A stretch of DNA of 64,000 bases, taken from positions 186,001 through 250,000 of the forward strand of contig JAJCXN010000055.1 in the NCBI GenBank assembly GCA_029263415.1, written 5' to 3'. This document shows, piece after piece, positions 11,190 through 26,517 of the stretch (its first letter is position 1; the number at the start of each line of letters is the position of its first letter). The notes beneath the pieces are model-generated. The model had not been told where the DNA came from. It saw only the letters and a program-made list of their open reading frames with translations, and searched no databases. The DNA is from Acidobacteriota bacterium. Its GTDB lineage: Bacteria > Acidobacteriota > Thermoanaerobaculia > Multivoradales > Multivoraceae. A program made the position numbers and the translations under genes.

Positions 11190-12437
11190 CTACCAGAGTC
11201 CGTAGCGCTGGACCTCGGCTCGGCCGACCACCATATGGTGCACTTCGTCTGGTCCGTCGGCGAAACGTAGGTGACGCATGTCGGTGTACATGCCAGCGAG
11301 CGGCGTCCACTGTGAGATTCCCGCTGCTCCGTGGATCTGGATGGCCGCGTCGATGATCTCACAGACCTTTTCTGGAACCATCGCCTTGACCGCGCTTACA
11401 TAGACCCGCGCCTCTTGATTGCCGAGAACGTCCATCGCCTTAGCGGCTTGCAGTACCGCAAGTCGCATTGCGTTGATTTCGATCCTGGCTCGGGAGATGA
11501 CCTCGAGGTTTTTGCCCAGTCGGACGAGGGGCTTGCCGAACGCTACTCGTGAGCAGGCCCGCTTGACCATCAGCTCGAGCGCTAGTTCGGCCTTGCCGAT
11601 CGAGCGCATGCAGTGGTGGATACGTCCTGGCCCTAGGCGGACCTGCGAGATTTCAAAGCCGCGACCTTCGCCCAGCAGAATGTTCTCCTTCGGTACTCGC
11701 ACGTTGTCGAACTTGATGTGCATGTGGCCGCGTGGCGCGTGGTCTTGCCCGAATACCTGCATCCCGTCGAGGATCTCGACTCCGGGAGTGTCGGTGGGAA
11801 CTAAGATCTGGGACTGTTGTCGGCTTGCTTGCGCGTCGGGGCTGGTGCGCACCATGGTGATCATGATCTTGCAGCGAGGGTCGCCGGCCCCCGAAATGTA
11901 GAACTTCTCACCGTTGATGACCCAGTCCTCGCCGTCCAAGATGGCGGTGGTACAGACGTTTTTGGCGTCCGACGATGCGACACCAGGTTCGGTCATCGCG
12001 TAGGCAGAGCGAATCTCGCCAGCGAGTAGTGGCTTGAGCCATTGCTCCTTCTGCTCCGGCGTGCCGACGCGCTCTAAGACCTCCATATTGCCGGTGTCGG
12101 GTGCTGAGCAGTTGAGCGTTTCTGAGGCCAGCGGGTACTTGCCAAGTTCTGCTGCGATATAGGCGTAGTCGAGATTGCTGAGGCCTTGCCCGATCTCTGA
12201 ATCGGGCAGGAAGAAATTCCACAACCCCGATGCCTTTGCCTTTGCCTTCGCGCCTTCCAGCAATTCGAGTTGTCGTGGGTGCCAGGACCAGCGGTCCTCT
12301 TTCTGCGCGTGCAGATCGGTGAATTCTTCGGTGATCGGCTCGACGTTGTCTTTGATGTGGCGCATGACCGCATCCATAAGCGGTTGGGCTTGCTCAGACA
12401 TGGCCAAGTTGAACAGTTCGGTGTTGACGGTGGTCAT
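11190..12437 (-). CDS. Acyl-CoA dehydrogenase family protein
   Basis: FAD-dependent enzyme of 415 residues that introduces a double bond into acyl-CoA thioesters. Seen: YAMTEPGVASSDAKN (FAD-binding, with the usual AxTEPxxGSD pattern), YISGAGDPRCKIMI, the RLGPGRIHHCMRSIGKAELALELM helix and a C-terminal QIHGAAGISQWTPLAGMYTDMR segment. Length and the N-terminal AQPLMDAVMRHIKDNVEPITEEF resemble the ACAD11/FadE-like group acting on longer or unusual chains. The frame is open to 12938, but that extension runs antisense through the his-trp leader; the ATG at 12437 has a GGAGAA ribosome site and starts the conserved part. Confidence 0.92.
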   Translation of the reverse strand: MTTVNTELFNLAMSEQAQPLMDAVMRHIKDNVEPITEEFTDLHAQKEDRWSWHPRQLELLEGAKAKAKASGLWNFFLPDSEIGQGLSNLDYAYIAAELGKYPLASETLNCSAPDTGNMEVLERVGTPEQKEQWLKPLLAGEIRSAYAMTEPGVASSDAKNVCTTAILDGEDWVINGEKFYISGAGDPRCKIMITMVRTSPDAQASRQQSQILVPTDTPGVEILDGMQVFGQDHAPRGHMHIKFDNVRVPKENILLGEGRGFEISQVRLGPGRIHHCMRSIGKAELALELMVKRACSRVAFGKPLVRLGKNLEVISRARIEINAMRLAVLQAAKAMDVLGNQEARVYVSAVKAMVPEKVCEIIDAAIQIHGAAGISQWTPLAGMYTDMRHLRFADGPDEVHHMVVGRAEVQRYGLW

Positions 12438-12561
12438 GAGTTCTCCAGGTTGAAGAGAGGAAGGCTTGGTGAGAGCGAAGGAGTGGATCGGAGATTGTAG
12501 TACTTTGCCTCGGAAGAGCAGCCGCCACGGTGTTACAAGAACGCGAAACCACGGGTTGTTC

Positions 12562-12590
12562 TTGACACGACTCAAACCCGCTGTTTTAAT
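12562..12590 (+). promoter_or_regulatory. Predicted promoter of the aro-his-trp supraoperon
   Basis: TTGACA at 12562-12567 is a perfect -35 consensus, followed after exactly 17 bases by TTTAAT at 12585-12590, a good -10. Transcription would begin near 12597, giving a leader RNA of about 205 bases up to the terminator at 12801. No other comparable promoter is visible between here and aroDE. Confidence 0.75.
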
Positions 12591-12638
12591 CCAGGGCTCG
12601 TAGCGACGGCAACTACTCTGTTGTCGCTGCAGAAAAAC

Positions 12639-12710
12639 ATGCTTGTACTCAACACCATCGTCGCGCCCACCAACAGCCAGCTGCACTGGCACCACTGGAC
12701 CCACAACTAG
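12639..12710 (+). CDS. His/Trp-rich attenuator leader peptide
   Basis: A 23-codon frame (ATG at 12639, TAG at 12708) encoding a peptide that ends QLHWHHWTHN. In the last nine sense codons there are four His codons (12684, 12690, 12693, 12702) and two Trp codons (12687, 12696). It sits between a consensus promoter and a rho-independent terminator ahead of an operon that makes exactly these two amino acids. Known parallels are the his leader (runs of His) and the trp leader (tandem Trp) of enterobacteria, and multi-specific leaders such as thr and ilv; a mixed His/Trp one is not known to me. No strong Shine-Dalgarno is seen before the ATG (only an A-rich GCAGAAAAAC), which is the main weakness. 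Confidence 0.82.
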   Translation: MLVLNTIVAPTNSQLHWHHWTHN

Positions 12711-12723
12711 GTCGGGCGCCGCT

Positions 12724-12757
12724 GCGCTCCCGGCCATCCATTGGCCGGTTGGAGCGC
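12724..12757 (+). promoter_or_regulatory. Pre-terminator hairpin of the his-trp leader
   Basis: GCGCTC (12724-12729) pairs with GAGCGC (12752-12757) and the adjacent CCGGCCA (12730-12736) with TGGCCGG (12742-12748) around a five-base loop, leaving three bulged bases. Its right arm, 12751-12758 (GGAGCGCT), can instead pair with AGCCTCC at 12770-12776, the left arm of the terminator, with one bulged C. Its left arm can instead pair with GGGCGC at 12714-12719. These exclusive pairings are what an attenuator needs. Confidence 0.65.
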
Positions 12758-12768
12758 TGACAAGTGAC

Positions 12769-12801
12769 AAGCCTCCTTTCCGGTCGGTAAGGAGGCTTTT
12801 T
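12769..12801 (+). terminator. Rho-independent attenuator terminator
   Basis: Perfect ten-base stem, AAGCCTCCTT at 12769-12778 with AAGGAGGCTT at 12789-12798, a ten-base loop, and a T-run at 12797-12801. It lies after the leader peptide and about 70 bases before aroDE. The gene on its other side is transcribed away from it, so it cannot be the end of an upstream gene; its position only makes sense as a conditional terminator in the supraoperon leader. Confidence 0.85.
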
Positions 12802-12870
12802 CGTGTCTGACAACTCTTTTGGTCGTTGCCACTTGCGACAGCTCCCCGATCGACGGGGTTTGAGGTAGGG

Positions 12871-14448
12871 GTGACCGTGGTTGCCGATTGCCAGATGCGC
12901 CCGCTGATTGTGGCGTCGCTCACCTCCATGAGCGACATCGATCGGCTCTCTCCTGCTCACTTGGATCAGGTGGATTGGCTCGAGGTGCGTGCAGATTTGA
13001 TCGGAGAGGTCGACCTTGGCGTCTTGCGTTCGCGGTTTGGCGGCAAGCTGCTCTATACCTTGCGTAGCCGGGAAGAGGGTGGCCAGTCGATGCTAACTGC
13101 CGCCGAACGACACGCAGCGATCGAAGCAGCGAGTGCGCTGTATGACTTCGTTGATCTCGAGCTGATCGCCGATCAGGCCAGCAATGCAATCTCGGTGGTC
13201 CCAGAGTCACAACGGGTGGTGTCTTGGCACGGTCAGTTCGGACAGCCGCCGTCGCTCGACGAGCTCAGGCGATTGTTGGATCAACAGCGGGCTGTGGGTG
13301 CGGCATTCAAGAAGCTGGTCACGGCTGCCGAGACCCCCGAGCAGGCGTTACCGAGCTTGCAACTCCAGGTGGAAGAGGGGGAGAGCGGCGATCTAGTGAG
13401 CTTTGCCATGGGTGAGAGCGCGTCATGGAGTCGAGTGATCGCTGCTGCTCGCGGATGCGCTCTCGTCTACGCTGCGTGCGCAAACACCAAGGCGGCGGCA
13501 GGGCAGTTCTCGGTCGCGCAACTGGTTGGTGACTATCATCTCGGAGCCAAACAAGCCGTAGCCAAACAACGGCCTCGTACCATGCCCACCAAACTCTGCG
13601 GCGTGCTGGGCTCAACGGTGGCACACAGCCTCTCTCCGCGTCTTCACAACGGTGCCTACCGCGATCGCGACCTCGATGCCTTGTTCGTACCCATCGCTAC
13701 CGCTGATGCTGCCTGCACACTCGAGATGTTGTCGAGTGCCGCCTTTGCGGAACTTGGTTTCCAAATTGGCGGCGTAGCGGTGACTACGCCGTACAAGGAC
13801 ACCGCACTTGCGATCGGCGAACCGACAACCTGCGCGACCACCATCGGTGCCGCCAATACACTCATTCCTCAGACCCGACAGCACCCATCCGGTTGGTTGG
13901 CGGACTCCACCGACCCCGAGGGTGTCGTGGGACCGCTTCGATATCGCGCTGTCCCGATCGCGGGAGTCGCTGCCGCAGTCGTCGGCGCGGGCGGTGCGGG
14001 CCGCGCGGCTGCCCATGGCTTGCACGAAGCGGGCGCGAGAGTCACCTTAGTCAACCGCACGGTAGCAAGCGGAACCGAGGCGGCCCACCGTCTGGGTGTT
14101 GATTTCCAGGCGCTCTGTGACTTCGATCCAGCAGCGTTCCGAATCGTGGTCAATGCGACTGCCTTGGGGCACTCAGCGGATGACCCAACTCCGTTCGATG
14201 TGGACCTACTCCGCGCTGATGCGACTTTGGTCGACATGGTCTACCTAGGCGGCGCGGTTGAGGATTCGGCGACCAGAAACACCCAGCTCGTGAAGCAGGC
14301 CAAGGCTCTTGGGCTCACTGTCGTCGACGGCCGCGAGGTCTTGTTGTTCCAAGGCCAAAAGCAGTTCATGCTGATGAATGACAGTGAACTCGACCTCGAA
14401 CGTGCGGCCACTCGGCTGGGCGTCGAGCTTGATGGCGGAGTACCGTAG
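12871..14448 (+). CDS. aroDE: Bifunctional 3-dehydroquinate dehydratase (type I)/shikimate dehydrogenase
   Basis: Fusion of two consecutive shikimate-pathway enzymes, 525 residues. Residues 1 to about 225 are type I dehydroquinase: LEVRAD (substrate-binding Glu/Arg), SWHGQF (catalytic His), and FKKLVTAAET with the Schiff-base Lys. Residues about 238-525 are shikimate dehydrogenase: STVAHSLSPRLHN, TTPYKDTAL with the catalytic Lys, STDPEG with the paired Asp, the NADP loop VVGAGGAGRAA and DMVYLG. The GTG at 12871 is chosen for the GAGG at 12862-12865; GTG 12877 or ATG 12895 are possible. It heads the supraoperon and overlaps hisZ by one base, supplying shikimate towards chorismate for Trp. Bacterial AroDE fusions are rare (chlamydiae, some others) but typical of plants. 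Confidence 0.93.
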   Translation: MTVVADCQMRPLIVASLTSMSDIDRLSPAHLDQVDWLEVRADLIGEVDLGVLRSRFGGKLLYTLRSREEGGQSMLTAAERHAAIEAASALYDFVDLELIADQASNAISVVPESQRVVSWHGQFGQPPSLDELRRLLDQQRAVGAAFKKLVTAAETPEQALPSLQLQVEEGESGDLVSFAMGESASWSRVIAAARGCALVYAACANTKAAAGQFSVAQLVGDYHLGAKQAVAKQRPRTMPTKLCGVLGSTVAHSLSPRLHNGAYRDRDLDALFVPIATADAACTLEMLSSAAFAELGFQIGGVAVTTPYKDTALAIGEPTTCATTIGAANTLIPQTRQHPSGWLADSTDPEGVVGPLRYRAVPIAGVAAAVVGAGGAGRAAAHGLHEAGARVTLVNRTVASGTEAAHRLGVDFQALCDFDPAAFRIVVNATALGHSADDPTPFDVDLLRADATLVDMVYLGGAVEDSATRNTQLVKQAKALGLTVVDGREVLLFQGQKQFMLMNDSELDLERAATRLGVELDGGVP

Positions 14449-15428
14449 TGCGTATCCAATCGGGCCTTCCGGTCGGCGTCAATGCAGCCTTCTTCGACGA
14501 AGCGCGGCGCATTCGCGCGCTCGAAGCTTTGCTCTCGACGCGACTCATCGAGGGGGGCTTTCACGAGGTGCTGCTGCCGATCCTCGACTACTACCAGCCC
14601 TATGAGAACCTACTCACTTCGGGTGCGACTGAGTCAGGTGCGGCCGAACAGCTCTATCGCTTCATTGATCGTGATGGACAACTACTGGCTTTGCGTCACG
14701 ACTTCACGCCAATGCTGGCGCGCTTAGTCGCGCCGCGCATCAGTCAGTGGCAACTGCCGGTCCGGCTGTTCTATCGCGGCGATGTGGTGCGCTTTCAGGA
14801 ACCACGTCCGGGTCGACTGCGCGAATCGGCGCAACTCGGAGCGGAGATTCTGGACGCACCGGAAGCGAGCAATGAGCAAGAGGTGCTCGAACTGTTTGTC
14901 GATCTGCTGCAACGTAGCACGAGGTCTGGAACCGGCGGCTTGCAGATTGTCCTTGGCCTCGCCAACGCGCTCGAACCGCTGATTGCAGCAGCTCCTGACG
15001 CGGCAGCAGCGGCGCAAGCTGTTGTCCGTCGTGATCGCACCGCGGCGGCCGCAGTGAGTCGCGCGCTCCTTGAGGTCGTTCGCGACGGAGCCCCAAGCGA
15101 CTTCGCGGCGCTAGGGCATCGAGCTGGCGAACTCGAGGGATTGTTCGAAATCAAGGAGCGTCTGCTGCAGTCGGTCAGTGGGGATGACGTGCAGGTGTCA
15201 GTCGATCTCGCTGAGTTCGAAGCCTCGTCCGGGACCATCCAGGGCAGCGAGCATCTCTACTACCAAGGCCTCGTGTTTCGCGCCTACCGCCGTGGGTCCG
15301 CCCAGCCAGTGGGCAACGGCGGTCGCTACGACGGGCTGTTCAAGGCGTTAGGTGCTGAAGTGAGTGCGGCTGGATTCTCCATTGGTCTCGATCAGTTGCT
15401 GGCTGCACAGGATACGGGGGGCATCTAG
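14448..15428 (+). CDS. hisZ: ATP phosphoribosyltransferase regulatory subunit HisZ
   Basis: A HisRS-like protein without tRNA-charging function that forms a hetero-octamer with short-form HisG and transmits feedback by histidine. In 326 residues it shows the class II synthetase-type motifs VLLPILDYYQPYE, LALRHDFTPMLARLVA, LFYRGDVVRFQEPRPGRLRESAQLGAEIL and C-terminal PVGNGGRYDGLFKALG, but lacks the anticodon-binding domain of true HisRS. GTG start overlaps the aroDE stop by one base. Directly followed by hisG, its partner. Confidence 0.94.
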   Translation: MRIQSGLPVGVNAAFFDEARRIRALEALLSTRLIEGGFHEVLLPILDYYQPYENLLTSGATESGAAEQLYRFIDRDGQLLALRHDFTPMLARLVAPRISQWQLPVRLFYRGDVVRFQEPRPGRLRESAQLGAEILDAPEASNEQEVLELFVDLLQRSTRSGTGGLQIVLGLANALEPLIAAAPDAAAAAQAVVRRDRTAAAAVSRALLEVVRDGAPSDFAALGHRAGELEGLFEIKERLLQSVSGDDVQVSVDLAEFEASSGTIQGSEHLYYQGLVFRAYRRGSAQPVGNGGRYDGLFKALGAEVSAAGFSIGLDQLLAAQDTGGI

Positions 15429-15429
15429 G

Positions 15430-16098
15430 ATGCTCCGACTAGCTTTGCCCAAGAGCCGGAACCAGGAGAGCGCGCTCGAAGCGCTGGGCGCGGCGGGTGT
15501 TGACGTGTCGACTTTCTCGAACCGTCGGCTGCGCCAGTGCCTGAGTATTGAACCCTTGTCGGTGTCTGCGCCCGGAGATGCGGGTCCAGAGATTCGCGAG
15601 GTCGAGATCGTTTCGCTCAAGGATTGGGATCTGCCGCTCTACGTCGAGTACGGTATCGCCGACTGCGGCTTCGTCGGTACTGATGTGCTGGAAGAGCGCG
15701 GTGCAGATCTGCTGACGCCATTGCGTCTGCGTGCAGGTCGTTGTCGTATGTCACTGATCTCGAACACAGTCCTCCCTCCGAGCGACGGTGCTCAGATTCG
15801 CGTTTGCAGCAAGTACCCTGAGTGGACGCGGCGATTGCTTGCGCAGAAGCCCTGGGGAGCGGAGGTGTTCCAATTGTGGGGTTCGGTTGAACTCGGTCCG
15901 CTGCTTGAGCTTGCAGAACTGGCGGTCGACATCGTGCAAACCGGATCGACGATCAAGGAACACGATCTCCATGAGTTGGAGGTGCTGGCCGAGATCGCAC
16001 CGACGTTGGTGATCAACCGTGCCGCTTTTCAACGGCAGCGCGTTGCGCTCAACGAATTGATGGCGCGCATCGAGCGCGCCGGGTTGGTGGGGGCCTAG
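15430..16098 (+). CDS. hisG: ATP phosphoribosyltransferase catalytic subunit HisG (short form)
   Basis: First committed step of histidine synthesis, joining ATP and PRPP. At 222 residues it lacks the C-terminal regulatory domain and so is the short form that needs HisZ, encoded just upstream. Motifs: LRLALPKSR at the start, YGIADCGFVGTDVLEE, the PRPP-binding ELAVDIVQTGSTIKEHDL and EIAPTLVINRAAFQ. One base separates it from hisZ; the frame stays open to 15364 inside hisZ but the conserved sequence starts at the ATG 15430. Confidence 0.95.
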   Translation: MLRLALPKSRNQESALEALGAAGVDVSTFSNRRLRQCLSIEPLSVSAPGDAGPEIREVEIVSLKDWDLPLYVEYGIADCGFVGTDVLEERGADLLTPLRLRAGRCRMSLISNTVLPPSDGAQIRVCSKYPEWTRRLLAQKPWGAEVFQLWGSVELGPLLELAELAVDIVQTGSTIKEHDLHELEVLAEIAPTLVINRAAFQRQRVALNELMARIERAGLVGA

Positions 16099-16102
16099 AT
16101 CG

Positions 16103-17527
16103 ATGTGCTCGAACACAACATTGCCTGGCAGGGCGTTGACTGGTGCGGCGATCTGGGGCACCGAGATTCATTCCCTACGCCCGCTGGTCGCGGGGACCAG
16201 CGAGTTCGCGGATCGCCTTAAGCTCCTGCGTGCTCGAGCTACGGCCTGTGTTGATGACGCCGTGATCGCGCGAGCAAGCGAGATCCTCCATGCTGTTCGA
16301 ACCGGTGGCGATCAGGCGTTGCTGAGTGCTGTCGAGACTTACGACGGCGTCACCAAGAGGTCCGTCTTGGAGCTGCTCTTTGAGGTGGAGAATGAGGCCG
16401 CGGCCTCAGATGGAGTGCCCGAACTCAATACTCAGCTCAGCGCAGAATTCCGTGCGGCAGTGCACAGCTCAATCACTGCGGTGCGCCGCTTCCATGAGCC
16501 GCAGCAGCGGTGGATCGAGTCAGGCCACTATGCGATCGAGGCCGACGGGCTCAAGATCGAAGAGCGCGTCTTCCCGCTGCGTCGAGTCGGGTTGTATGTG
16601 CCAGGTGGCCGGTTCGTCTATCCGTCGACGGTGATCATGACCGTGGTGCCAGCGCAGCTTGCAGGCGTCAGCGACATTGTGGTTGCTTGCCCCCCTGCAG
16701 CGTTGGCTTCGAGCGCCGAACTGCGCTATGTGCTGCAAGTTTTGGGGATCAGCGAGGTTTGGGGAATGGGCGGCGCGCATGCGATTGCGGCTTTGGCCTA
16801 CGGCACCGACACTGTCAGGCCAGTGGATTTCATCGCCGGCCCAGGCAACGCTTGGGTGACGGCGGCTAAGCAGCTGGTTCGCGGTACGGTAGGAACCGAT
16901 CACGACGCTGGCCCGTCTGAAGTCGTGATCGTCGCCAGTGGCGATGCGCCCGCGACGTGGGTTGCTGCGGACTTGATTGCGCAAGCGGAGCACGACCCGC
17001 GAGCAGTTGCCGTGCTGGTCACGCCGTCGATGGACTTGGCGGAGTCGGTGCTCGCTGCGCTGACTCAGCAACTCGGTGACTTGGCGACGGCGGAGACCGC
17101 AGTTGAAGCCCTGGCAGGTTTCGGCGCGGTCCTGGTGACAGAAGACCTTGAGCAAGCGTTCGAGGTCGGCGAGTCGTTGGCCGCCGAGCATCAACAATTG
17201 ATGGGTGCAGCGGCCGAAGACTTGGCGCCACGCTGTCGCGCTGCTGGCGCACTGTTTGTCGGTAGTGCGACCCCCACGTGCTTCGGAGACTACGCCGCGG
17301 GACCCTCGCATGTGCTGCCTACCGGTGGTACCGCACGCTACTCGTCGGGCTTGTCGGTGCTTGACTTCGTCCGGCGGACACATTCGGTTCGAGCCAACTC
17401 AGAAGCGTCCGCTTCGCTGGGGCGGACCGCGGCCGCGCTGGCCGAAGTCGAGGGCTTGGTTGGACACCGACGTTCCGCGGTTCTGCGCGCTGAGGCCTTG
17501 GCGGTCGATGCTGGTGAGTCGTCATGA
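16103..17527 (+). CDS. hisD: Histidinol dehydrogenase HisD
   Basis: Zinc- and NAD-dependent enzyme for the last two oxidations, histidinol to histidine. The 474 residues include the N-terminal YVPGGRFVYPSTVIM, VWGMGGAHAIAALAYGT, DFIAGPGNAWVTAAKQ, HDAGPSEVVIVA, AQAEHDPRA (zinc-binding His) and CFGDYAAGPSHVLPTGGTARY. The usual APEHL around the catalytic Glu-His reads AAEHQQL here, a conservative variation. It is about 30-40 residues longer than many homologues, mostly at the N-terminus (an earlier methionine may not be the true start). It overlaps hisC by four bases. Confidence 0.95.
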   Translation: MCSNTTLPGRALTGAAIWGTEIHSLRPLVAGTSEFADRLKLLRARATACVDDAVIARASEILHAVRTGGDQALLSAVETYDGVTKRSVLELLFEVENEAAASDGVPELNTQLSAEFRAAVHSSITAVRRFHEPQQRWIESGHYAIEADGLKIEERVFPLRRVGLYVPGGRFVYPSTVIMTVVPAQLAGVSDIVVACPPAALASSAELRYVLQVLGISEVWGMGGAHAIAALAYGTDTVRPVDFIAGPGNAWVTAAKQLVRGTVGTDHDAGPSEVVIVASGDAPATWVAADLIAQAEHDPRAVAVLVTPSMDLAESVLAALTQQLGDLATAETAVEALAGFGAVLVTEDLEQAFEVGESLAAEHQQLMGAAAEDLAPRCRAAGALFVGSATPTCFGDYAAGPSHVLPTGGTARYSSGLSVLDFVRRTHSVRANSEASASLGRTAAALAEVEGLVGHRRSAVLRAEALAVDAGESS

Positions 17528-18621
17528 CACCGCGGAATCCAAGTCGGAAACCCTCGGCGAGCGCTTTCATGAGAGCCGAGCTGCGTGCACTATCTGTCTA
17601 CCAGCTCGACCAAACCGCGTTCACTCACAAGCTCGATCAGAACGAGGTGCCGTGGGATCTGCCGAGCCGTATGAAGCGAGAAGCACTTCAACGGATCGAG
17701 CGGCGCAACTGGGCTCACTATCCGGATTTTCACAGTGATCGACTGCGCGAGCAGATCGCTCAGCGCTACGGCCTCAAGCTCAATTCGGTGCTGGTGGGAA
17801 ATGGTTCGAGTGAACTGCTTGGTGTGGTGATCGAGGCCTTGGTGGGAGCCGGGGATGAGGTGATCTCACTGGCTCCGGCGTTCAGTTTGTATGAAATGTT
17901 TGTGCGCCGCACTGGCGGTCGGACGCTGACGCTTGCGCCGCGCGCCGATTTCGCTTTGCAGATGGACGAGCTGCTCGCAGAAGTCGAGCGCGATCCGGAG
18001 CGCACGGTTCTGTTGTGTGCGCCAAACAATCCGACCGGCGCTACCGCCACGGTAGATCAGGTGCGAGCGGTGCTGGAGGCGCTCAATGCTCCGCTGCTGC
18101 TCGACAATGCCTACGGTGAATTCTGCGACCAGAGCTATCTACCGCTCCTGAGCGAGTATGCAAATCTGGTTGTGTTTAGAACGTTCTCTAAGGCTTGGTC
18201 CGTCGCCGGGGTCCGGCTCGGCTACCTGTTGGCAGATCCTGAATTTGTCGGTGAGCTGCTCAAGGTGAAGCTGCCGTACAACGTCAACCATGCGTCGGCG
18301 GTCATCGGCGAAGTGATGCTCGAGAACGCAAGCTTCTCGGAACGCAGTGTGCGAGTTCTGTGCGGACGCCGAAGTCAGTGGAGTTCGTTGTTCGAGACTG
18401 CGGGCTTCGAGGTGTTTGAGTCCCACGCGAACTTCATCTTGGTCCGACACCCCGAGGCGGAACGGGTTCGCGATGGCCTTGGCGATCGCGGGATTCTGGT
18501 TCGCGACGTTTCATCGGGTCCAGGGCTCCAGCGATGTCTCAGGGTCGCTTTGGGCGATGGTCGTGCGCTGCGAGCGACCCGGCAAGCTTTGACCGAGATT
18601 CTTCATCTGGAGCAGCTATGA
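17524..18621 (+). CDS. hisC: Histidinol-phosphate aminotransferase HisC
   Basis: PLP-dependent class I/II aminotransferase turning imidazole acetol-phosphate into histidinol phosphate. The 365-residue sequence has LDQNEVPWDLP and HYPDFHSDRLREQIAQRYG near the N-terminus, NGSSELL, the PLP-contacting CAPNNPTGATA and LLDNAYGEF, and the Schiff-base Lys in FRTFSKAWSVAGVRLGYLL near residue 224. Start ATG 17524 overlaps the hisD stop (ATGA), as does its own stop with hisB, so translation is coupled throughout. Confidence 0.95.
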   Translation: MTPRNPSRKPSASAFMRAELRALSVYQLDQTAFTHKLDQNEVPWDLPSRMKREALQRIERRNWAHYPDFHSDRLREQIAQRYGLKLNSVLVGNGSSELLGVVIEALVGAGDEVISLAPAFSLYEMFVRRTGGRTLTLAPRADFALQMDELLAEVERDPERTVLLCAPNNPTGATATVDQVRAVLEALNAPLLLDNAYGEFCDQSYLPLLSEYANLVVFRTFSKAWSVAGVRLGYLLADPEFVGELLKVKLPYNVNHASAVIGEVMLENASFSERSVRVLCGRRSQWSSLFETAGFEVFESHANFILVRHPEAERVRDGLGDRGILVRDVSSGPGLQRCLRVALGDGRALRATRQALTEILHLEQL

Positions 18622-19259
18622 CCGACTCGAATGCGAATGCCACAACTGGGCGCAGCGCCACCATCCAGCGTGCGACCAAAGAGACACAGATCGACCTAGC
18701 GCTAGATCTCGATCCCAACTCGGCACAACTTGCAGCGCGCTCGATCGAAGTGCCTGACGGGTTCTTCGCGCACATGTTGGATGCGCTGAGCAAGCATGCC
18801 GGAATCGGTATCCGGCTCGAGGCCACCGGCGACACGCACATCGACCTTCACCATACGGTTGAGGACACCGGCCTCGCATTGGGTGAGGCGCTGAGTGAGG
18901 CGCTTGGCGATCGAACCGGCATTGTGCGCTTCGCGCATGCGTATGCGCCACTGGATGAGGCGTTGAGCAGAGCTGTGATCGACCTCTCGGGCCGCGGTTT
19001 CTTGTGCCTGCGGATGCCCGAACCACTGCAACAAGCGTGGGTCACTCAGGACTTTCCGCTGACTTTGATTGAAGACTTCTTTCAGGCCTTCGCTGATCGT
19101 GGACGCTTTACTCTGCACTTGGACATGTTGGAAGGTCGTAACCCGCACCACGTTGCCGAGTCGGCCTTCAAAGCGGCGGCACTAGCTCTGCGTCAGGCAG
19201 TCACGGTAAGACCTGGCGACAGTTCTGTTCCGAGCACCAAGGGAACCTTGAGCGCGTGA
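18618..19259 (+). CDS. hisB: Imidazoleglycerol-phosphate dehydratase HisB
   Basis: Manganese-dependent dehydratase, 213 residues, monofunctional. Both internal halves of the family fold are visible: DGFFAHMLDALSKHAGI, HIDLHHTVEDTGLALGEAL (metal-binding HHxxED), LDEALSRAVIDLSGRG and GRNPHHVAESAFKAAALALR (second HHxxE). There is no N-terminal HAD phosphatase domain, so histidinol-phosphate phosphatase must be encoded elsewhere. The N-terminal 25 residues are an Asn/Thr-rich tail. ATGA overlap with hisC. Confidence 0.95.
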   Translation: MTDSNANATTGRSATIQRATKETQIDLALDLDPNSAQLAARSIEVPDGFFAHMLDALSKHAGIGIRLEATGDTHIDLHHTVEDTGLALGEALSEALGDRTGIVRFAHAYAPLDEALSRAVIDLSGRGFLCLRMPEPLQQAWVTQDFPLTLIEDFFQAFADRGRFTLHLDMLEGRNPHHVAESAFKAAALALRQAVTVRPGDSSVPSTKGTLSA

Positions 19260-19903
19260 ACTCTTCTGCTTCAGCCATCGTGATCATCGATGCGGGCGTT
19301 GGCAATTTGGGTAACGTGCTGCGCGCCGTCGAGCACGTGGCGCTTGGGTGTCGGGCGGTGATTACCGACGACCCGGACAAGGTTCGTCGAGCCCGTATTC
19401 TGATCCTGCCTGGAGTCGGCGCTTTTAGACCGCCGCGGGAACGTCTGCGTGGTGGACTTGAAACGGCGCTGGCTGAGGCTCTCGCTCAGGGCGCGTTCTT
19501 GCTGGGCATCTGCGTGGGTTTTCAACTGCTGTTCGAGGGCAGTGATGAGTTTGGCGATACGGACGGTCTCGCCTATGTGCCCGGTCGCGTGACCCGCATG
19601 CCCGATCACAGTGCGGATGGCGCCGCATCGCCCCACATTGGTTGGAACCGTTTAGTCGACTGCACCGACCACCCGTTGCTCAAGGGGGTCCACGACGATT
19701 ACGCCTACTTTGTACACAGCTACGCGGCGATCAACGTTCCTTCAGAACTCGAAGTAGCTAGTTGCTACCACGGGACTCGCTTTCCCGCGGTCGTTGCTCA
19801 CGGCAAGGTGATGGGTACTCAGTTTCATCCCGAAAAATCTGGCGCAGTCGGACTCAAGATTCTCGGCAATTTTCTCGAGCTCGCCGGAGGCACTCATGTT
19901 TGA
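19256..19903 (+). CDS. hisH: Imidazole glycerol phosphate synthase glutaminase subunit HisH
   Basis: Class I glutamine amidotransferase that supplies ammonia to HisF. In 215 residues it shows the N-terminal VIIDAGVGNLGNV, oxyanion loop LPGVGAF, the nucleophile Cys in GICVGFQLLFEGSDE and the His/Glu pair in GTQFHPEKSG. GTG start overlaps hisB by four bases and its end overlaps hisAF by eight. It must dock on the HisF half of the downstream fusion, so the assembled enzyme would combine HisA, HisF and HisH activities in one complex. Confidence 0.95.
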   Translation: MNSSASAIVIIDAGVGNLGNVLRAVEHVALGCRAVITDDPDKVRRARILILPGVGAFRPPRERLRGGLETALAEALAQGAFLLGICVGFQLLFEGSDEFGDTDGLAYVPGRVTRMPDHSADGAASPHIGWNRLVDCTDHPLLKGVHDDYAYFVHSYAAINVPSELEVASCYHGTRFPAVVAHGKVMGTQFHPEKSGAVGLKILGNFLELAGGTHV

Positions 19904-21509
19904 CGCCATCGGATCTGCGACTGACGCCCCGCCACAGGAGAAGGTGGGAGCCAACGGGTTTGAGTTCATGCCGGCGATCGATCTGCGCCATGGGCGGGTG
20001 GTTCGGCTCCAACAGGGCGACGACGCTCGGCAAACGGTCTACGGCGATGATCCGGAGAAGGTCCTGCGTGGCTATGCCGATTCGGGCATCCAGCGTGTGC
20101 ACATTGTTGACCTCGACGCAGCTTTTGGGGAAGCTCCGCAACGCGAGTTGATTGAGCGCCTATTGTCGATGGACTCAGGCCCAAGTATCCAACTTGGCGG
20201 TGGCCTGCGCGATCGCTCGTCGGTGGATTGGGCGTTTGCTGCGGGCGCAGAACGGGTGGTCATCACATCGCTCATGGTGCGCGATTTCGCTGCGTTCGCA
20301 GAACTGTGCAGTCGCTATTCGCAGCGGGTGGTCGCGGCCTTGGATTGCCGCGATGGCGATTCCGGAGCGCAGCTCCGGCTCGCGGGGTGGACCGAATCGG
20401 CGAGCGAGGATGTGGAGACCATTTGCGAACGCCTGCGACGGTTACCATTGGCTGCAGTCCTAGTCACCGACATCGGCAGAGACGGCATGATGTCGGGCCC
20501 CAATATCGCGCTAGCAGCGCGGCTTGGTCTTTGGAGTGGAGCTCCAAGCATCGTCTCGGGCGGCGTTCAGTCATTGGTAGACCTCGAGTTGGCCGTTGCA
20601 GAGCCGGGCGTCGGCGGGGTGGTGGTGGGCAAAGCTCTCTTCGATGGAAGCATTAGCCTTGATGCCGCTATGCGTACGGTCGAAGGCGGCGGTGCAAACC
20701 GGGGGGTTCGCGCTCGGCCGATCACCGGGCTCACCCATCGGGTGATCCCGTGCCTGGATGTCCAGGATGGGCGGGTGGTCAAAGGTGTGAACTTTCAGAA
20801 TCTTGTCGATCACGGTGATCCAGCAGAAGCGGCCAAGAGGTACGCAGAACAAGGTGCTGATGAGATCGTGTTCCTCGACATTGGAGCCGGTCCGGAGCGC
20901 CGGGATACCGATCTTGATTGGGTGAGCCGGGTCGCTGAGCAGGTGTTTGTTCCGTTGTGCGTTGGAGGTGGTGTGCGCAAGGTCGAGGATGCGCGCGAAT
21001 TGCTGCTCGCTGGGGCAGACAAGATTGGCATCAACAGCGCAGCCGTGGATCGTCCCGAGTTGCTGCGCGAGTTGGCGGAACGCTTCGGCAAGCAGTGTGT
21101 GGTTTTGTCGGTGGATGCACGTCGGCGTCCTGCAACTGGTAGTGGTACGCCCACGTGGGAAGTCATGAGCGGCGGCGGCCGGCACGAAACCGGGCTCGAC
21201 GCGCTTGAGTGGATTTTTCGAGCAACCGAGCTGGGTGCGGGCGAAATCCTGTTGACCAGTATCGATAGCGACGGCACCCAGGATGGCTACGATACCGAGC
21301 TGCTGCGCGCCGTCTGCTCGATGGTGAGCGAGCCGGTAATCGCCTCGGGCGGCGCTGGCACCATTGCTCACTTGGAAGCGGCGCTCAGTACTGGTGTTTC
21401 TGCAGTGTTGGCTGCGTCAATCTTTCACGAAGGGACTTTTACTGTGTCGGACGTCAAGCAACAACTCAGTCACCGTTTTCCAATGCGAACAGCGAGGCAC
21501 CCCAGATGA
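19896..21509 (+). CDS. hisAF: HisA-HisF fusion: ProFAR isomerase/IGP synthase cyclase
   Basis: One 537-residue protein with two complete (beta-alpha)8 barrels. Residues about 22-258 are HisA: Asp29 in MPAIDLRHGRVVRL, Asp150 in VVAALDCRDG, LVTDIGRDGMMSGPN. A short Gly/Arg-rich linker (about 262-277) follows. Residues about 279-530 are HisF: Asp288 in VIPCLDVQDGRVVKGVNF, CVGGGVRKVEDA, Asp407 in VVLSVDARRR, LTSIDSDGTQDGYD and VIASGGAGT. All four catalytic aspartates are kept, so both halves should be active on consecutive steps, with PRFAR passing from one to the other. HisA and HisF are classic paralogues; as separate genes they are normally adjacent. The reading frame shows no sign of error at the junction. 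It overlaps hisH by eight bases and hisIE by four. Confidence 0.93.
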   Translation: MFDAIGSATDAPPQEKVGANGFEFMPAIDLRHGRVVRLQQGDDARQTVYGDDPEKVLRGYADSGIQRVHIVDLDAAFGEAPQRELIERLLSMDSGPSIQLGGGLRDRSSVDWAFAAGAERVVITSLMVRDFAAFAELCSRYSQRVVAALDCRDGDSGAQLRLAGWTESASEDVETICERLRRLPLAAVLVTDIGRDGMMSGPNIALAARLGLWSGAPSIVSGGVQSLVDLELAVAEPGVGGVVVGKALFDGSISLDAAMRTVEGGGANRGVRARPITGLTHRVIPCLDVQDGRVVKGVNFQNLVDHGDPAEAAKRYAEQGADEIVFLDIGAGPERRDTDLDWVSRVAEQVFVPLCVGGGVRKVEDARELLLAGADKIGINSAAVDRPELLRELAERFGKQCVVLSVDARRRPATGSGTPTWEVMSGGGRHETGLDALEWIFRATELGAGEILLTSIDSDGTQDGYDTELLRAVCSMVSEPVIASGGAGTIAHLEAALSTGVSAVLAASIFHEGTFTVSDVKQQLSHRFPMRTARHPR

Positions 21510-22246
21510 GCGGTTCCGCTCCCCAAATATCCCTAGCGTCTGCCGACCTCGAGCGGCTGCGCTTTGATGAGGCAGGCCTGATTCCGATGGTGGTTCAGGA
21601 TGTTCAAAGTGGCACTGTACTGATGGTGGGTTGGGCAAATCGACAGGCGGTAGCGTTGACCATCGAGACACAGCGTGCTCATTTCTTTAGTCGATCCCGG
21701 CAGACCTTGTGGCGCAAAGGCGAGACCTCGAGTAATGAGCTGGTGGTGCGCGAGATCGCCGTCGACTGTGATCGCGACACGCTACTGGTACGCGCTGACC
21801 CACGCGGCCCGACCTGTCACACCGGTGGGCGCTCTTGCTTCGACGACGGTCTCAAGCGGGTTCCGTCGCAGCTCGAGCTCGGTTGGCTGGCGGAGGTTGT
21901 TGCGAGTCGTGCACGGGCCGGCGATGCCAATGCGAGCTACACGGCGAGACTGCTCGCGCAGGGTGTGGAACGTGTTGCACAAAAGGTCGGTGAGGAGGCG
22001 GTCGAGACGGTAATCGCCGCTGTTGTTGATCCTGCACGAGGTTCCGCCGAGGGGTCGCAACGTCGCGAACTTGTGGGCGAAAGCGCGGACCTCTTGTTCC
22101 ATCTCCTGGTCCTACTCGAGGCCAAACAGATTCCGCTGCAAGAGGTCGCGGCTGAATTGCGTAAGCGGCACAGCCAATCCGATTCCGTTGCGGACCTTGA
22201 GGGTGACCGATCGCCTAGCGCGGCTGAAGAAGGTGGCGCTCGATGA
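21506..22246 (+). CDS. hisIE: Bifunctional phosphoribosyl-AMP cyclohydrolase/phosphoribosyl-ATP pyrophosphatase HisIE
   Basis: Catalyses the second and third steps of histidine synthesis. Residues about 15-125 are HisI: FDEAGLIPMVVQD, MVGWANRQA, FFSRSRQTLWRKGETS, zinc ligands in VDCDRDTLL and GPTCHTGGRSCF. Residues about 130-230 are HisE, a MazG-like helical domain with QKVGEEAVETVIAA and RRELVGESADLLFHLLVLLEA. 246 residues in all, with a charged C-terminal tail. ATGA overlaps on both sides; it is the junction gene joining the his and trp halves of the operon. Confidence 0.95.
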   Translation: MSGSAPQISLASADLERLRFDEAGLIPMVVQDVQSGTVLMVGWANRQAVALTIETQRAHFFSRSRQTLWRKGETSSNELVVREIAVDCDRDTLLVRADPRGPTCHTGGRSCFDDGLKRVPSQLELGWLAEVVASRARAGDANASYTARLLAQGVERVAQKVGEEAVETVIAAVVDPARGSAEGSQRRELVGESADLLFHLLVLLEAKQIPLQEVAAELRKRHSQSDSVADLEGDRSPSAAEEGGAR

Positions 22247-23892
22247 GTGGCTCGCAAGAGCGCGGCAGCGTGCGTGCCACCGCCCATATCCGAGAGTTCC
22301 TCGCGGACACCTTGACACCGCTCGGCGTCTTCAAGCGACTCCAAGGTCTCTCGGATTTTCGGTTTCTCCTGGAGAGCGTGACCGGTGGTGAGCAAGTGTC
22401 GCGTTTCTCGTTTGTTGGTGCAGCCCCCAGCGAGGTGCTGTGGCTCTACGAAGACAAGCTCCTCTTGTCGAAAACGCCCGACCTCAAGCAGCGCACGGAA
22501 CTCGCTGGCGATCCCTTGGCTGTGCTGCGAGCGCGCATGGAATCGATTACTGGTGAACGCTGCTTGGTCGCGGGCACCGAGCTGCCGTTCGTCGGTGGCT
22601 GGGTAGGGTACTTCGGTTGGGACCTGGTCCGATTGCTGGAGAACTTGCCGAGCCGCCCGCCGGACGACTTCGGTCTTCCTATTGCCCTGCTTGCACGCTT
22701 TGATGACGTCGCAGTCATTGATCATGCACGTCAACGGATTGTGCTGGTTGCCAATGAGGTGGAAGGCGAGACCACCGGGGCCTCAGCAGAAGCGCGACTC
22801 GATGCACTGACGGGAACTCTCGAGGCGGCCCAGGGCGCTGGTGCTCTGCCGCTGCCGCAAGAGGAGTTGAAGCCACCTGTGCTCGCGCCGCCGACACTCA
22901 GCGATGACGAATACCAAGCAGCAGTGGTGAAGGCCAAAGAGTACATTGGCCAGGGTGACATCTTTCAAGTTGTACCCGCGCGGCGCTGGGAGGTGCAAGA
23001 GAGCATCAAACCACTCGCGTTGTATCGGTCCCTGCGAGTGGTCAATCCGAGCCCCTACATGGTGCTAATCGAGACCCCGGAGGTTTCTTTGGTCGGAGGA
23101 TCACCGGAGACGCTGGTCAGAGTGCAAGGCGACACTTTCTCAGTCCGACCGCTCGCTGGGACCCGGCCTCGTGGCGCCACGCCTCAGCAGGATCGTGAGC
23201 ACGAGCGAGAGATGCTGGAGGATCCAAAAGAGATCGCCGAGCACGTCATGTTGGTGGATCTTGGCCGCAACGATCTGGGGCGCGTTGGGGCAGCGGGCGA
23301 GGTCAAGGTCTCGGACTTCATGACAGTCGAGCGCTACAGTCATGTCATGCATATCGTCAGCAGCGTCCAAGCCCGTCGAGCGGAAGGGCGATCTGCGCTC
23401 GATGCGTTGTTCGCGTGCTTCCCCGCGGGCACGTTGTCTGGTGCACCCAAGATTCGTGCGATGGAGATCATCGATGAGCTGGAGCCGGCCGCTCGGGGTC
23501 CGTACGGCGGCGCAGCCGGCTATCTCTCGTTCAACGGTGATCTTGATACCTGCATCACCATTCGTACATTGGTGGTCGAGCCGAACAGGATCACGGTCTC
23601 CGCTGGGGCGGGACTGGTCGCCGATTCAGATCCCGCCAGTGAGCAACAAGAAACAAAGGACAAGGCGGCGGCACTCTTGCGTGCTGTGGCTCTGGCCAAA
23701 CGACTTCAGGAAACTTCAACCGAGGCGCTCAACTTGGACTCATTGACGAACGCAGTGAATTCTACAGACGCAGTGAATCCCATAGGCGCAGTGAATCCCA
23801 CAGACGCTGTGAATCCCACAGACGCTGTGAACCCTACGGACGCGGTGAAGCCTACGGACGGAGTGAACTCGGCGGACGGAGGCGAATCATGA
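22243..23892 (+). CDS. trpE: Anthranilate synthase component I TrpE
   Basis: Converts chorismate and ammonia to anthranilate, first committed step of Trp synthesis. 549 residues. Near the N-terminus LLES (residues 42-45) is the motif that binds feedback Trp. The catalytic domain shows GDIFQVVPARRWE, PYMVLIETPEVSLVGGSPE, RPLAGTRPRG, LVDLGRNDLGRV, FPAGTLSGAPKIRAMEII and GPYGGAAGYLSF. The C-terminus is extended by a repeat tail (residues 506-547) of seven hexapeptides like NPTDAV, absent from ordinary TrpE. ATGA overlaps with hisIE and trpG show that the trp genes are translated from the same message as the his genes. Confidence 0.95.
   Translation: MSGSQERGSVRATAHIREFLADTLTPLGVFKRLQGLSDFRFLLESVTGGEQVSRFSFVGAAPSEVLWLYEDKLLLSKTPDLKQRTELAGDPLAVLRARMESITGERCLVAGTELPFVGGWVGYFGWDLVRLLENLPSRPPDDFGLPIALLARFDDVAVIDHARQRIVLVANEVEGETTGASAEARLDALTGTLEAAQGAGALPLPQEELKPPVLAPPTLSDDEYQAAVVKAKEYIGQGDIFQVVPARRWEVQESIKPLALYRSLRVVNPSPYMVLIETPEVSLVGGSPETLVRVQGDTFSVRPLAGTRPRGATPQQDREHEREMLEDPKEIAEHVMLVDLGRNDLGRVGAAGEVKVSDFMTVERYSHVMHIVSSVQARRAEGRSALDALFACFPAGTLSGAPKIRAMEIIDELEPAARGPYGGAAGYLSFNGDLDTCITIRTLVVEPNRITVSAGAGLVADSDPASEQQETKDKAAALLRAVALAKRLQETSTEALNLDSLTNAVNSTDAVNPIGAVNPTDAVNPTDAVNPTDAVKPTDGVNSADGGES
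23758..23883 (+). repeat. 18-base coding tandem repeat in trpE, seven units
   Basis: Seven head-to-tail units of 18 bases encode N-(P/S)-T-D-A-V hexapeptides at the very end of trpE. Third and fourth units are identical, others differ at silent and replacement sites. The period is a multiple of three, so gain or loss of units would not shift the frame into the overlapping trpG start. Confidence 0.9.
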
Positions 23893-24617
23893 GCCTGCGT
23901 CGACATGCCACCTGGGAACTGGGAGCCGAGTGGGCAAGCCGTGGTCGACCGCGTTTGCTAATTGTCGACAACTACGACTCGTTTACCTACAACTTGGTCC
24001 AGATGCTGGCGGTCAACAAGGTGGCGTTGGAAGTTGTTCGCAACGATCTACTGTCGGCTGAGCAGGTTCTTGAACAAGTTGAGCAGGGGCGCGTTCAAGG
24101 CTTGGTGTTGTCGCCCGGCCCGGGCCGACCCGAGGATGCTGGCATCTGCGCCGATCTCCTGAAAGCTCAACCGAAGATCCCTATCTTGGGGGTTTGTCTT
24201 GGACATCAGGCGATGGGGTTTGCCTCCGGAGCGGTGGTTGATCGAGCGCCGGTGTTGATGCACGGCAAGACCTCTTCGATCCGTTTCGAGGATCATGCGA
24301 TGTTCTTTGACATTCCGCAGCCGTTTATCGCCACGCGGTACCACAGCCTTCGAGTCGCGGAAGAGTCTCTGCCAGACGAGTGGTTGCCACTCGCTTGGAG
24401 CGAGGAGGGCATCTTGATGGCAATGGCGCATCGGTCGTTGCCGTATTGGGGATTCCAGTTTCACCCGGAGTCGATTCTGACTGTCGACGGAGCGCAGCTA
24501 CTGGCAAACTTCGTAGCTCTGACGGAGACCTACGACCGCGAAGGTCAGGATCCTGAAACCCGCGTTCAGCGAACCGCACTGAGTTCAGAGCCAGCCTCAA
24601 GCGAGACCGAACTATGA
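23889..24617 (+). CDS. trpG: Anthranilate synthase glutaminase component TrpG
   Basis: Glutamine amidotransferase partner of TrpE, also usable by PabB for folate synthesis in some bacteria. In 242 residues: LLIVDNYDSFTYNLVQ, LSPGPGRPEDAG (oxyanion region), nucleophile Cys in LGVCLGHQAMGFASG, and the His/Glu pair in GFQFHPESILT. About 20 extra residues precede the conserved start and a 25-residue acidic tail follows. It is a stand-alone domain, not fused to TrpE or TrpD. Four-base overlaps with trpE and trpD. Confidence 0.95.
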   Translation: MSLRRHATWELGAEWASRGRPRLLIVDNYDSFTYNLVQMLAVNKVALEVVRNDLLSAEQVLEQVEQGRVQGLVLSPGPGRPEDAGICADLLKAQPKIPILGVCLGHQAMGFASGAVVDRAPVLMHGKTSSIRFEDHAMFFDIPQPFIATRYHSLRVAEESLPDEWLPLAWSEEGILMAMAHRSLPYWGFQFHPESILTVDGAQLLANFVALTETYDREGQDPETRVQRTALSSEPASSETEL

Positions 24618-25669
24618 GCGAGTCAACCACCTTCAGCGATCTATTGCGACACTTGATCTCTGGCCAGGATCTCACCCGAATCGAAATCGAGAACCTGTTC
24701 GGTCGATTGATGGATGGCGAGTTGTCGGTCTTCGAGAAGACGGCCCTTCTGGTTGCACTGGCGTGCAAGGGAGAGTCCTCAGAGGAGATCGCCGGAGCCG
24801 CGTCGGCGATGCGCGGGCGCTTGCTCGAGGTTCATCACTCGCAAACCGACGCGGTAGATACCTGCGGGACGGGTGGGGACGGCTTGGGCACGGTCAATGT
24901 GTCGACTGCAGCGGCTCTGTGTGCTGCGGCCGCAGGAGTTCCTATCGCAAAACACGGGAATCGATCGGTCTCGAGCAAGTCAGGCAGTGCCGACGTATTG
25001 GCCGCGCTAGGGTTAGAGCTCGAACTCAGCCCGCGAGTGATGGGGCGGTGTCTGGATCACGTCGGGATTGCCTTCTTGTTTGCGCCACTCCTGCACCCGG
25101 CCATGCGCGAGGTGATGCCGGTACGCAGCGCACTCGGAGTCCGCACCGTCTTCAATGTGCTTGGTCCTTTGACCAATCCAGCTGGCGCGCGTCGTCAGGT
25201 GATGGGTGTCTTTGCTCGACGCTTGGTGCTGCCGATCGCGCAGGTTCTCAAAGAGCTGGGGGCTGTCCATGCGTTGGTAGTCCACGGTGCAGATGGCCTC
25301 GATGAGATCTCGACCACTGGGCCAACCTTCGTTGCGGAGGTGAATGGCTCGGTGATCTCTGAGTACACGCTCGAACCCGAGGACTTCGGCTTGGTGCGGC
25401 GTTCGCTCGACGAGCTCGCGGGTGGTACTCCTGAGGAGAACGCGGTCTCGCTGAAGACTGTGTTGGAAGGAGCCGACGGCGCACAGAGTGCGCACGCCGA
25501 GATCGCGGCGTTGAACGCGGCTGCCGCTCTCTATGTTGGCAGCAAGGTTCATGATCTGGGGGCAGGCGTTCAGCTAGCGCGCGAGACTCTTGGGTCCGGC
25601 GCGGGTATGCGCAAGCTCGAAGAGCTGGTGGCGTTTAGCGCTGCCGCATCTTCTGAGGACAGTCGATGA
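24614..25669 (+). CDS. trpD: Anthranilate phosphoribosyltransferase TrpD
   Basis: Second Trp-branch step, joining anthranilate and PRPP. The 351-residue sequence has the PRPP motif DTCGTGGDGLGTVNVST, the KHGNRSVSSKSGSADVLAALG loop, the anthranilate-tunnel stretch FAPLLHPAMREVMPVRSALGVRTVFNVLGPLTNPA and VVHGADGLDEIS. Family-typical length and complete. ATGA overlaps on both sides. Confidence 0.95.
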   Translation: MSESTTFSDLLRHLISGQDLTRIEIENLFGRLMDGELSVFEKTALLVALACKGESSEEIAGAASAMRGRLLEVHHSQTDAVDTCGTGGDGLGTVNVSTAAALCAAAAGVPIAKHGNRSVSSKSGSADVLAALGLELELSPRVMGRCLDHVGIAFLFAPLLHPAMREVMPVRSALGVRTVFNVLGPLTNPAGARRQVMGVFARRLVLPIAQVLKELGAVHALVVHGADGLDEISTTGPTFVAEVNGSVISEYTLEPEDFGLVRRSLDELAGGTPEENAVSLKTVLEGADGAQSAHAEIAALNAAAALYVGSKVHDLGAGVQLARETLGSGAGMRKLEELVAFSAAASSEDSR

Positions 25670-26517
25670 GCGAGAGTCTTGCCGACGTATTGCTCCGCAT
25701 TGTTGAACGACGTACGGATGTGCTGTCGGGTGCCGGGCACGCGATCGGTGCGGAAGGTGTCAGTCGGTCCGCGCTGGCCGACCGCGTGGAGTGGCCGGTG
25801 CTCGCGCAGGACACCGCCGGCCATGCTTTCCTCAGCGGCCTTTTGGAGCAGCGCGGTAATGCGATCATCGCCGAAGTCAAGATGGGCTCGCCGAAGCTGG
25901 GCGACCTGAGAACCGAGGTCGACGCTGAAGCGCAGGCGCGAATCTATGGGGAGGGCAAAGCGGCAGCGTTGTCGGTTGTGGTCGAGCCTGACCACTTCTT
26001 TGGCAGCTATCAGCTTTTGGAGCGATGCCGGCGGGCAAGTGGATTGCCCGCGATCGCGAAGGACTTCCTGGTTTCAGAGCAGCAGCTGCGGTGGGCACGT
26101 GACGCGGGTGCTGGCGCCGTGCTACTCATCGCGGCGCTCTATGAGTCTCGGGAGCTCGAAGACTACGCGCTCGCAGCCTTGGCACTGGGCTTGGTGCCAT
26201 TGGTCGAAACGCACACAGCAACGGACATTGCCAAACTGATGTCCAACAACGCGGTTCGCTATGACTTGGTTGGAATCAATAATCGGGATCTCCGGGACTT
26301 CTCAGTGGACATCGAGAATTCAATTCGATTGAGGCCGACCCTGCCCGCTTCGGCGCTTTCGGTGGCTGAAAGTGGTATCCACAAGCGCTCAGACATCGAG
26401 CATCTTTCAAGCGCAGGCTTCGATGCCTTTCTTGTCGGCGAATCGTTGTTGCTAGCTAAAGATCCGGCTGCTCGGCTGTCTCATCTGCGTGGTGATTTGC
26501 TGGGCGCCCGTCCATGA
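25666..26517 (+). CDS. trpC: Indole-3-glycerol phosphate synthase TrpC
   Basis: A (beta-alpha)8 enzyme that closes the indole ring. In 283 residues: catalytic Lys in AIIAEVKMGSPKLGDLR, second Lys in PAIAKDFLVSEQQL, LVETHTATDIAKL, VGINNRDLRDFSVDI and ALSVAESGIHKRSDIEHL then FLVGESLLLAKDP. It is monofunctional; TrpF is a separate gene immediately downstream with an ATGA overlap. Confidence 0.94.
   Translation: MSESLADVLLRIVERRTDVLSGAGHAIGAEGVSRSALADRVEWPVLAQDTAGHAFLSGLLEQRGNAIIAEVKMGSPKLGDLRTEVDAEAQARIYGEGKAAALSVVVEPDHFFGSYQLLERCRRASGLPAIAKDFLVSEQQLRWARDAGAGAVLLIAALYESRELEDYALAALALGLVPLVETHTATDIAKLMSNNAVRYDLVGINNRDLRDFSVDIENSIRLRPTLPASALSVAESGIHKRSDIEHLSSAGFDAFLVGESLLLAKDPAARLSHLRGDLLGARP

Follow-up and report, generated by a model that had tools for sequence, protein, structure and literature searches.

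A candidate attenuator reading His and Trp codons ahead of a joint aroDE-his-trp operon in Acidobacteriota

The window analysed here, a stretch of 64,000 nucleotides from an Acidobacteriota genome, carries genes for histidine and tryptophan biosynthesis side by side on the plus strand. The first gene of the array is aroDE (12871–14448, start codon uncertain), which encodes a fused type I 3-dehydroquinase and shikimate dehydrogenase. It is followed by hisZ, hisG, hisD, hisC, hisB, hisH, hisA-hisF (in one frame), and hisIE at 14448–22246, and then by trpE, trpG, trpD, trpC, trpF, trpB, and trpA at 22243–29363. The his and trp genes were assigned by NCBIfam matches, which bear out the initial annotation in placing genes of exactly these two pathways downstream of a leader peptide. 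The matches of hisZ, hisC, and hisB scored under the curated cut-offs of their best NCBIfam models, with gene order and length in agreement, and those of trpE, trpC, and trpF were also under the cut-offs. Neighboring genes overlap at 10 of the 11 junctions examined, seven of them via ATGA, including the hisIE-trpE junction; given these overlapping junctions, the aroDE, his, and trp genes are likely to form a single transcript. HisA and HisF share one open frame of 537 aa (19896–21509), and a single open frame across the two was also found in 3 of 38 relatives' loci (L037, L038, and L040). The predicted C-terminus of TrpE (approximately 23780–23889) contains a DAVNPT-type short tandem repeat.

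Upstream of aroDE, on the same strand, direct reading of the sequence revealed a promoter-like site at 12562–12590, consisting of TTGACA at −35 (12562–12567), a spacer of 17 nt, and TTTAAT at −10 (12585–12590). A hairpin of 12 bp predicted by RNA folding in the 5′ untranslated region (12600–12630) precedes the ATG of a leader peptide ORF of 23 codons plus TAG (12639–12710), which is translated as MLVLNTIVAPTNSQLHWHHWTHN before the stop. The ATG, preceded by gcagaaaaac, is without a good Shine-Dalgarno sequence. The C-terminal end of the peptide is QLHWHHWTHN; of the last nine sense codons, four encode His and two encode Trp, and the regulatory codons H W H H W T H occupy 12684–12704. Further downstream, a terminator composed of AAGCCTCCTT-TCCGGTCGGT-AAGGAGGCTT and a subsequent T run lies at 12769–12801. 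The initial annotation had described this leader, its His and Trp codons, and its position between TTGACA-17-TTTAAT and a rho-independent terminator, and the sequence agrees on each point. Fixed-rule scans reported neither a promoter nor a terminator in the window, because the promoter rule requires the second base of the −10 element to be A and the terminator rule limits loops to 3–8 nt. As in an attenuator, a leader ORF rich in codons for the operon products is situated between the promoter and the first gene, and, as in one of mixed specificity, these codons stand for two amino acids, both of which are operon products.

The stretch between the leader stop codon and the end of the terminator can be divided, on the plus strand, into segments that would form competing helices. 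Segment B (12710–12719; assigned by eye and from alignment columns 31–38/47–54) would pair with C on an upstream ribosome stall. Segment C (12724–12735) would pair with B or D, and segment D (12743–12757) with C or E; segment E (12769–12785) comprises the 5′ arm of the terminator (12769–12778) together with loop bases pairing with D, and segment F (12789–12801) comprises the 3′ arm and the T run. Segments C, D, and E were placed by folding and alignment, and F by these and the sequence itself. The alignment contained 23 of the 49 leaders examined, including three his-only and three trp-only ones; the aligned region started at the last regulatory codons, and stacks were scanned without a model. 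The top four stacks were E:F, B:C, C:D, and D:E. Since C, D, and E are each common to two helices, the combination of B:C and D:E excludes that of C:D and E:F. The proportion of paired cells was 87.7% for the former set and 88.4% for the latter; neither percentage was reached in any of 500 column shuffles, and pairing dropped to 61.6–65.4% when the partner was shifted by one column. Seven pairs per set were changed on both sides, a number reached by 0 of 500 shuffles for the antiterminator and by 42 of 500 for the terminator. The mutually exclusive antiterminator pairing characteristic of an attenuator is kept in the relatives. An intrinsic terminator follows the leader in the window and in 45 of the 49 leaders examined, the hairpin picked being doubtful in a few of them.

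The effect of the ribosome position on these helices was calculated by masking the mRNA as far as 12 nt beyond the first base of the A-site codon, an assumed footprint, and folding the remainder to just before F; the folds represent equilibrium rather than kinetic structures. In the window, the probability that the E arm is sequestered was lowest for a ribosome at the stop codon (0.07) and rose to 0.61 at the His codons and 0.75 at the Trp codons; it was 0.25 with no ribosome. When the intervening stretch was shuffled 60 times, neither the His nor the Trp difference was reached once. Folding thus predicts antitermination in the window when the ribosome stalls at His or Trp codons and termination when it stands at the stop codon. 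Across the leaders folded, the His effect exceeded 0.1 in 36 of 44 and the Trp effect in 16 of 42, each being reversed in one leader and the Trp effect being weaker in many relatives. The mean difference was 0.34 for His as against 0.02 in shuffles (18 leaders), and 0.31 for Trp as against 0.04 (15 leaders). Taken singly, 8 of the 18 leaders for His and 4 of the 15 for Trp showed a difference that was reached by at most 5% of the shuffles.

The relatives are metagenome-assembled genomes of Acidobacteriota, mostly of the class Thermoanaerobaculia, and the arrangement aroDE-hisZGDCBHAF-IE-trpEGDCFBA is common in the order of the window. Leaders ahead of the operon in these relatives include GWWHGVHHHGDF, PGWWLRVHHHTT, TSWWAHGHGKG, RGHWHHHVN, and AWRTHHHHAVS, among others. 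Leaders were classified by a fixed rule, which took the best ORF with its stop codon 40–450 nt upstream of the first gene and called it mixed if the last 14 codons contained at least one Trp, at least two His, and at least four Trp and His codons together. The initial annotation had proposed a comparison with relatives sharing the operon as a check for conserved His and Trp codons, and such conservation was found: a Trp+His leader was present at 51 of 55 loci classed as joint, as against 68 of 4000 random segments of 700 nt from the fetched loci. One genus contributed 20 of the 55 loci, 18 of which passed, and 33 of the 35 loci from the remaining genera passed as well. The his and trp genes reside on one contig at 45 joint loci, 43 of which passed in a manual tally; the jointness of the other 10 of the 55 was deduced, because their contigs end before trpE or before the his genes meet trpE. 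The four joint loci failing the rule belong to genomes G016, G451, G018, and G028. The leaders of G016 and G451 contain one Trp and two His codons each, the leader of G018 is missing upstream of segment D, and that of G028 (locus L193), GRRGGMHHRHGP, has RR where its genus mate G057 has WW, hisIE and trpE being adjacent in G028.

The fixed-rule counts omit loci, such as L049 and that of G031, at which the sequence upstream was too short. Also omitted were contigs carrying aroDE only (G022, G026, G028, G030, G033, G034, G038, G041, G047, G049, G050, and G061), locus L033 of G030, and G060, in which no leader had at first been recognised. The leader of G031, cut by the contig end, reads CWRSSAHHHAH, and that of G060, SSWWYGVHHHGI, is visible by eye. 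Among the omitted aroDE-only contigs, those of G022, G030, and G061 have Trp+His leaders, and that of G050 has one Trp and three His codons. With a loose promoter pattern, the ATG of the leaders in families f9, f10, f14, and f17 is located approximately 5–11 nt past a putative −10 element (short distances are seen, for example, in L263, L264, L232, L253, L245, and L046), and the leader may therefore be translated from a nearly leaderless mRNA in these families.

In several lineages, the composition of the leader differed with the gene content of the operon. By the fixed rule, his-only operons had His-only leaders in seven of eight cases. The trp-only regions, for which families f11–f13 and genus g57 were partially covered, had Trp-only leaders in 8 of 24 cases and unrecognised ones in 16, with none mixed as scored. 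In one of these regions, that of G044, the position scored was upstream of aroDE; the actual leader before trpE, SGWWWLSHIHWTGV, is rich in Trp with two His and would satisfy the mixed rule, bringing the mixed count to 1 of 24 if so scored. Trp-only calls were made by chance in 359 of 4000 random segments, and therefore mainly the WWW cases of family f10 carry weight. In f10, the his and trp operons are separate and have His-run and Trp-run leaders, respectively: HHHRHHHLV, HHHHHHVM, HHHHHI, HRHHHHHHQR, and, in G075, HHHLAWHHRP before the his operon, and WWWPSSE, NWWWYC, NWWWSRRS, and SWWYRRA before aroDE-trpE. Both kinds are present in one genome in G085 and in G083; no leader was seen ahead of aroDE-trpE in G089.

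Similar differences are found within other families. In G026 and G041 of family f4, the first his operon stops at hisA, hisF-hisIE-trp is located elsewhere, and the leaders LVHHHKMT and GVHHHHGMS are without Trp; in the same family, the leaders of G034, in which the operon is joint on a single contig, and of G047, in which the contig ends before trpE, contain both Trp and His. In G042 of family f5, the his and trp genes are apart and the leader is VVVHHHPVI, and the leaders of its mates G027 and G035 are AWRTHHHHAVS and AWRGHHHHSVS. G055, which like G044 is trp-only and has no hisG or hisD matches, has QHR where its relatives have HHH. Exceptions to the correspondence between leader and gene content are G028, G044, G053, in which HVH is kept, and G075, a his-only case with one Trp. 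A TrpE tree comprising 48 genomes requires eight changes of the joint state (6–9 in bootstraps), and well-supported branches force at least four of them. The leader codons appear, from these comparisons, to have been rewritten when the operon split or one pathway was dropped. The possibility that aroDE decides the leader was rejected, as the leader stands directly before hisZ in G049 and G052. In family f6 (L036, L047, L171, and L172), aroDE is apart from the his-trp operon, the leader of which lies directly before hisZ; there, the gene after aroDE is distantly hisZ-like (26–34% identity), perhaps hisS. In some genomes of f13 and f14 (L227, L229, L257, L258, and L260), a single hisD immediately precedes trpE; no further his gene was found next to it, and no leader of the His/Trp type was seen.

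The joint operon is not private to the family of the window, being present in other families. In f14 and f17, which lie outside the order of the window but within its class, it has leaders such as RRHHHHWHW, GHWYWFH, RHWHAHH, and WHWHWHH, and it is also found in f52, which belongs to Acidobacteriota outside this class and in which the leader of G346 reads RRWR...HHHRYH. The best reading of these sequences is that the His+Trp attenuator is old in its class. No his or trp gene was found in approximately 3 kb downstream of 21 named aroDE relatives outside Acidobacteriota. A covariance model built from the leader-region alignment matched the locus in 52 of 71 genomes of the order, the sequences used to build it matching by construction, and 17 of the 19 genomes with no match belong to family f3. 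In the window's own genome, this search found no second such locus; the next match was the minus strand of the same terminator (E 0.007), and the rest had E > 1. Four additional weak full-length matches in the order (G042 C125, G043 C24, G010, and G015) were rejected, as they have a terminator and no His/Trp leader, the upstream part of G042 C125 being lost at the contig end. In f3, none of 18 genomes, most of them incomplete assemblies, had a hisG match, and aroDE-trp is retained; members of this family (for example L151, L155, L156, and L157) have probably lost histidine synthesis.

We considered whether the leader might belong to a His-only attenuator that is unresponsive to a Trp shortage, with Trp codons that are present by chance or in decay. 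His codons do outnumber Trp codons, the folding effect is stronger for His and is seen in more leaders (36 of 44, as against 16 of 42 for Trp), and Trp has been lost in G028. However, when ORFs were chosen by terminator distance (18 leaders, 347 residues), Trp was enriched like His relative to shuffles (z 7.8 and 7.9, respectively, followed by Ile with z 2.1), in a test that is not wholly independent because terminators had been sought near the leader. In addition, Trp is kept at 51 of the 55 joint loci and absent from seven of the eight his-only leaders, and the trp operons of f10 carry WWW leaders of their own. We regard a His-only attenuator as improbable. It is still harder to believe that the TGG and CAY runs owe their conservation to a role as an RNA sequence or structure element rather than to being read as codons. 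The region just downstream is indeed strongly structured and conserved, but His is spelled both CAC (126 codons) and CAT (74 codons) in the relatives' leaders, which use all three stop codons. Moreover, the order and spacing of Trp and His vary between families (WW..HHH, RHWHAHH, and HHHHWHW) with the content retained, and this content tracks the amino acids that the operon makes. Just as little credence is given to a peptide acting mainly in trans, with attenuation as a secondary role; a trans role has been reported for the leader peptide peTrpL of Sinorhizobium and provides a precedent, but the N-terminal part of the present peptide varies widely, conservation is limited to the His/Trp content and the cis structures, and the present data contain no pointer to a trans target. 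Least probable of all is an ordinary terminator or boundary with the operon starting downstream of the hairpin, for although the stem is nearly symmetrical, the covariance model matches the minus strand too, and a minus-strand gene begins nearby, no promoter-like site was found between the terminator and aroDE in a narrow-rule scan, TTGAC-type promoter-like sites occur upstream of the leaders in many relatives (loose pattern), and B, C, and D would be purposeless in a plain terminator.

On the strength of the sequence comparison and the folding models, we consider it highly probable that the element is a ribosome-mediated transcription attenuator of the aroDE-his-trp operon with dual specificity for His and Trp, operating by OR logic. 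The comparative support for such a dual-specificity attenuator is strong. In the proposed mechanism, RNA polymerase would start just past 12590 and be followed by a ribosome translating the leader. If charged tRNA-His or tRNA-Trp were scarce, the ribosome would stall at one of the six His/Trp codons, leaving B, just past the stop codon, free to pair with C. D would then be available for E, and the resulting D:E helix would block the terminator E:F, so that the 16-cistron aroDE-his-trp message would be made. A ribosome reaching the stop codon would instead allow C:D and E:F to form, and transcription would end before aroDE; termination would likewise be favoured in the window with no translation. 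Because a stall on either codon type would have the same outcome, either shortage would raise both pathways, and restraint of the pathway that is not short would have to come from feedback inhibition of its enzymes. Stalling, termination and readthrough in vivo, the single transcript, and the physiology are what we infer from the locus and its relatives. The broader proposal also seems probable, with somewhat more reserve: that a single attenuator responds to two amino acids made by separate pathways and controls both pathways through one 16-cistron transcript, that it is old in Thermoanaerobaculia and occurs in f52 as well, and that its codons were rewritten in several lineages.

Attenuators described in textbooks each respond to the products of a single pathway; the his attenuator has three hairpins with alternative pairings, the trpL attenuator has four segments, and the thr (Thr/Ile) and ilv leaders are of mixed codon make-up. 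The window shares with hisL of Salmonella and E. coli a His-rich leader, a three-hairpin arrangement with alternative pairings, and a terminator before the first gene. In contrast to hisL, which is of single specificity and precedes his genes only, the leader of the window also contains Trp codons and stands ahead of a joint aroDE-his-trp operon. With trpL of E. coli it shares a short leader, with adjacent Trp codons in trpL, and competing hairpins (PMC1183508, which also describes the general attenuation model and names thr and ilv among the attenuated operons), whereas trpL has Trp and no His and the window has both and six segments. As in the thr (Thr/Ile) and ilv (branched-chain) leaders, one leader reads several operon products; the amino acids of those operons share a pathway or precursors, whereas His and Trp are made by two separate pathways. 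The leaders of hisZ/hisS in bacilli (Naville and Gautheret 2010, PMC2965389) resemble that of the window in their His run, their position upstream of hisZ, and their occurrence outside Proteobacteria and Actinobacteria, but they are of single specificity and from Firmicutes, whereas the leader of the window is mixed and from Acidobacteriota. Almost none of the Acidobacteria attenuators predicted in that 2010 study had an associated function. The element matched no Rfam family; the models His_leader and Trp_leader gave no match up to E 10 in window positions 12300–13000 and none at the gathering score in the loci of 10 relatives. No His+Trp leader was found described in the open-access literature searched (titles, abstracts, and search terms), an earlier mention being possible in the comparative surveys cited in PMC4833913. 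As far as sequences can tell, the relation to known attenuators is clear and the evolutionary record is unusual.

If the conserved His+Trp leader functions as proposed, one sensor read by the ribosome would tie together two pathways that consume PRPP, raising the question of what keeps the cells from wasting whichever amino acid is in sufficient supply. The mixed, His-only, and Trp-only leaders of the relatives would constitute a natural experiment on specificity after operon fusion and fission. Since the codons appear to have been rewritten where the operon split or lost a pathway, these genomes would record the evolution of leader specificity by codon change. The finding adds a well-supported candidate attenuator to Acidobacteriota, and the leader signature may be used to predict joint control of his and trp genes.
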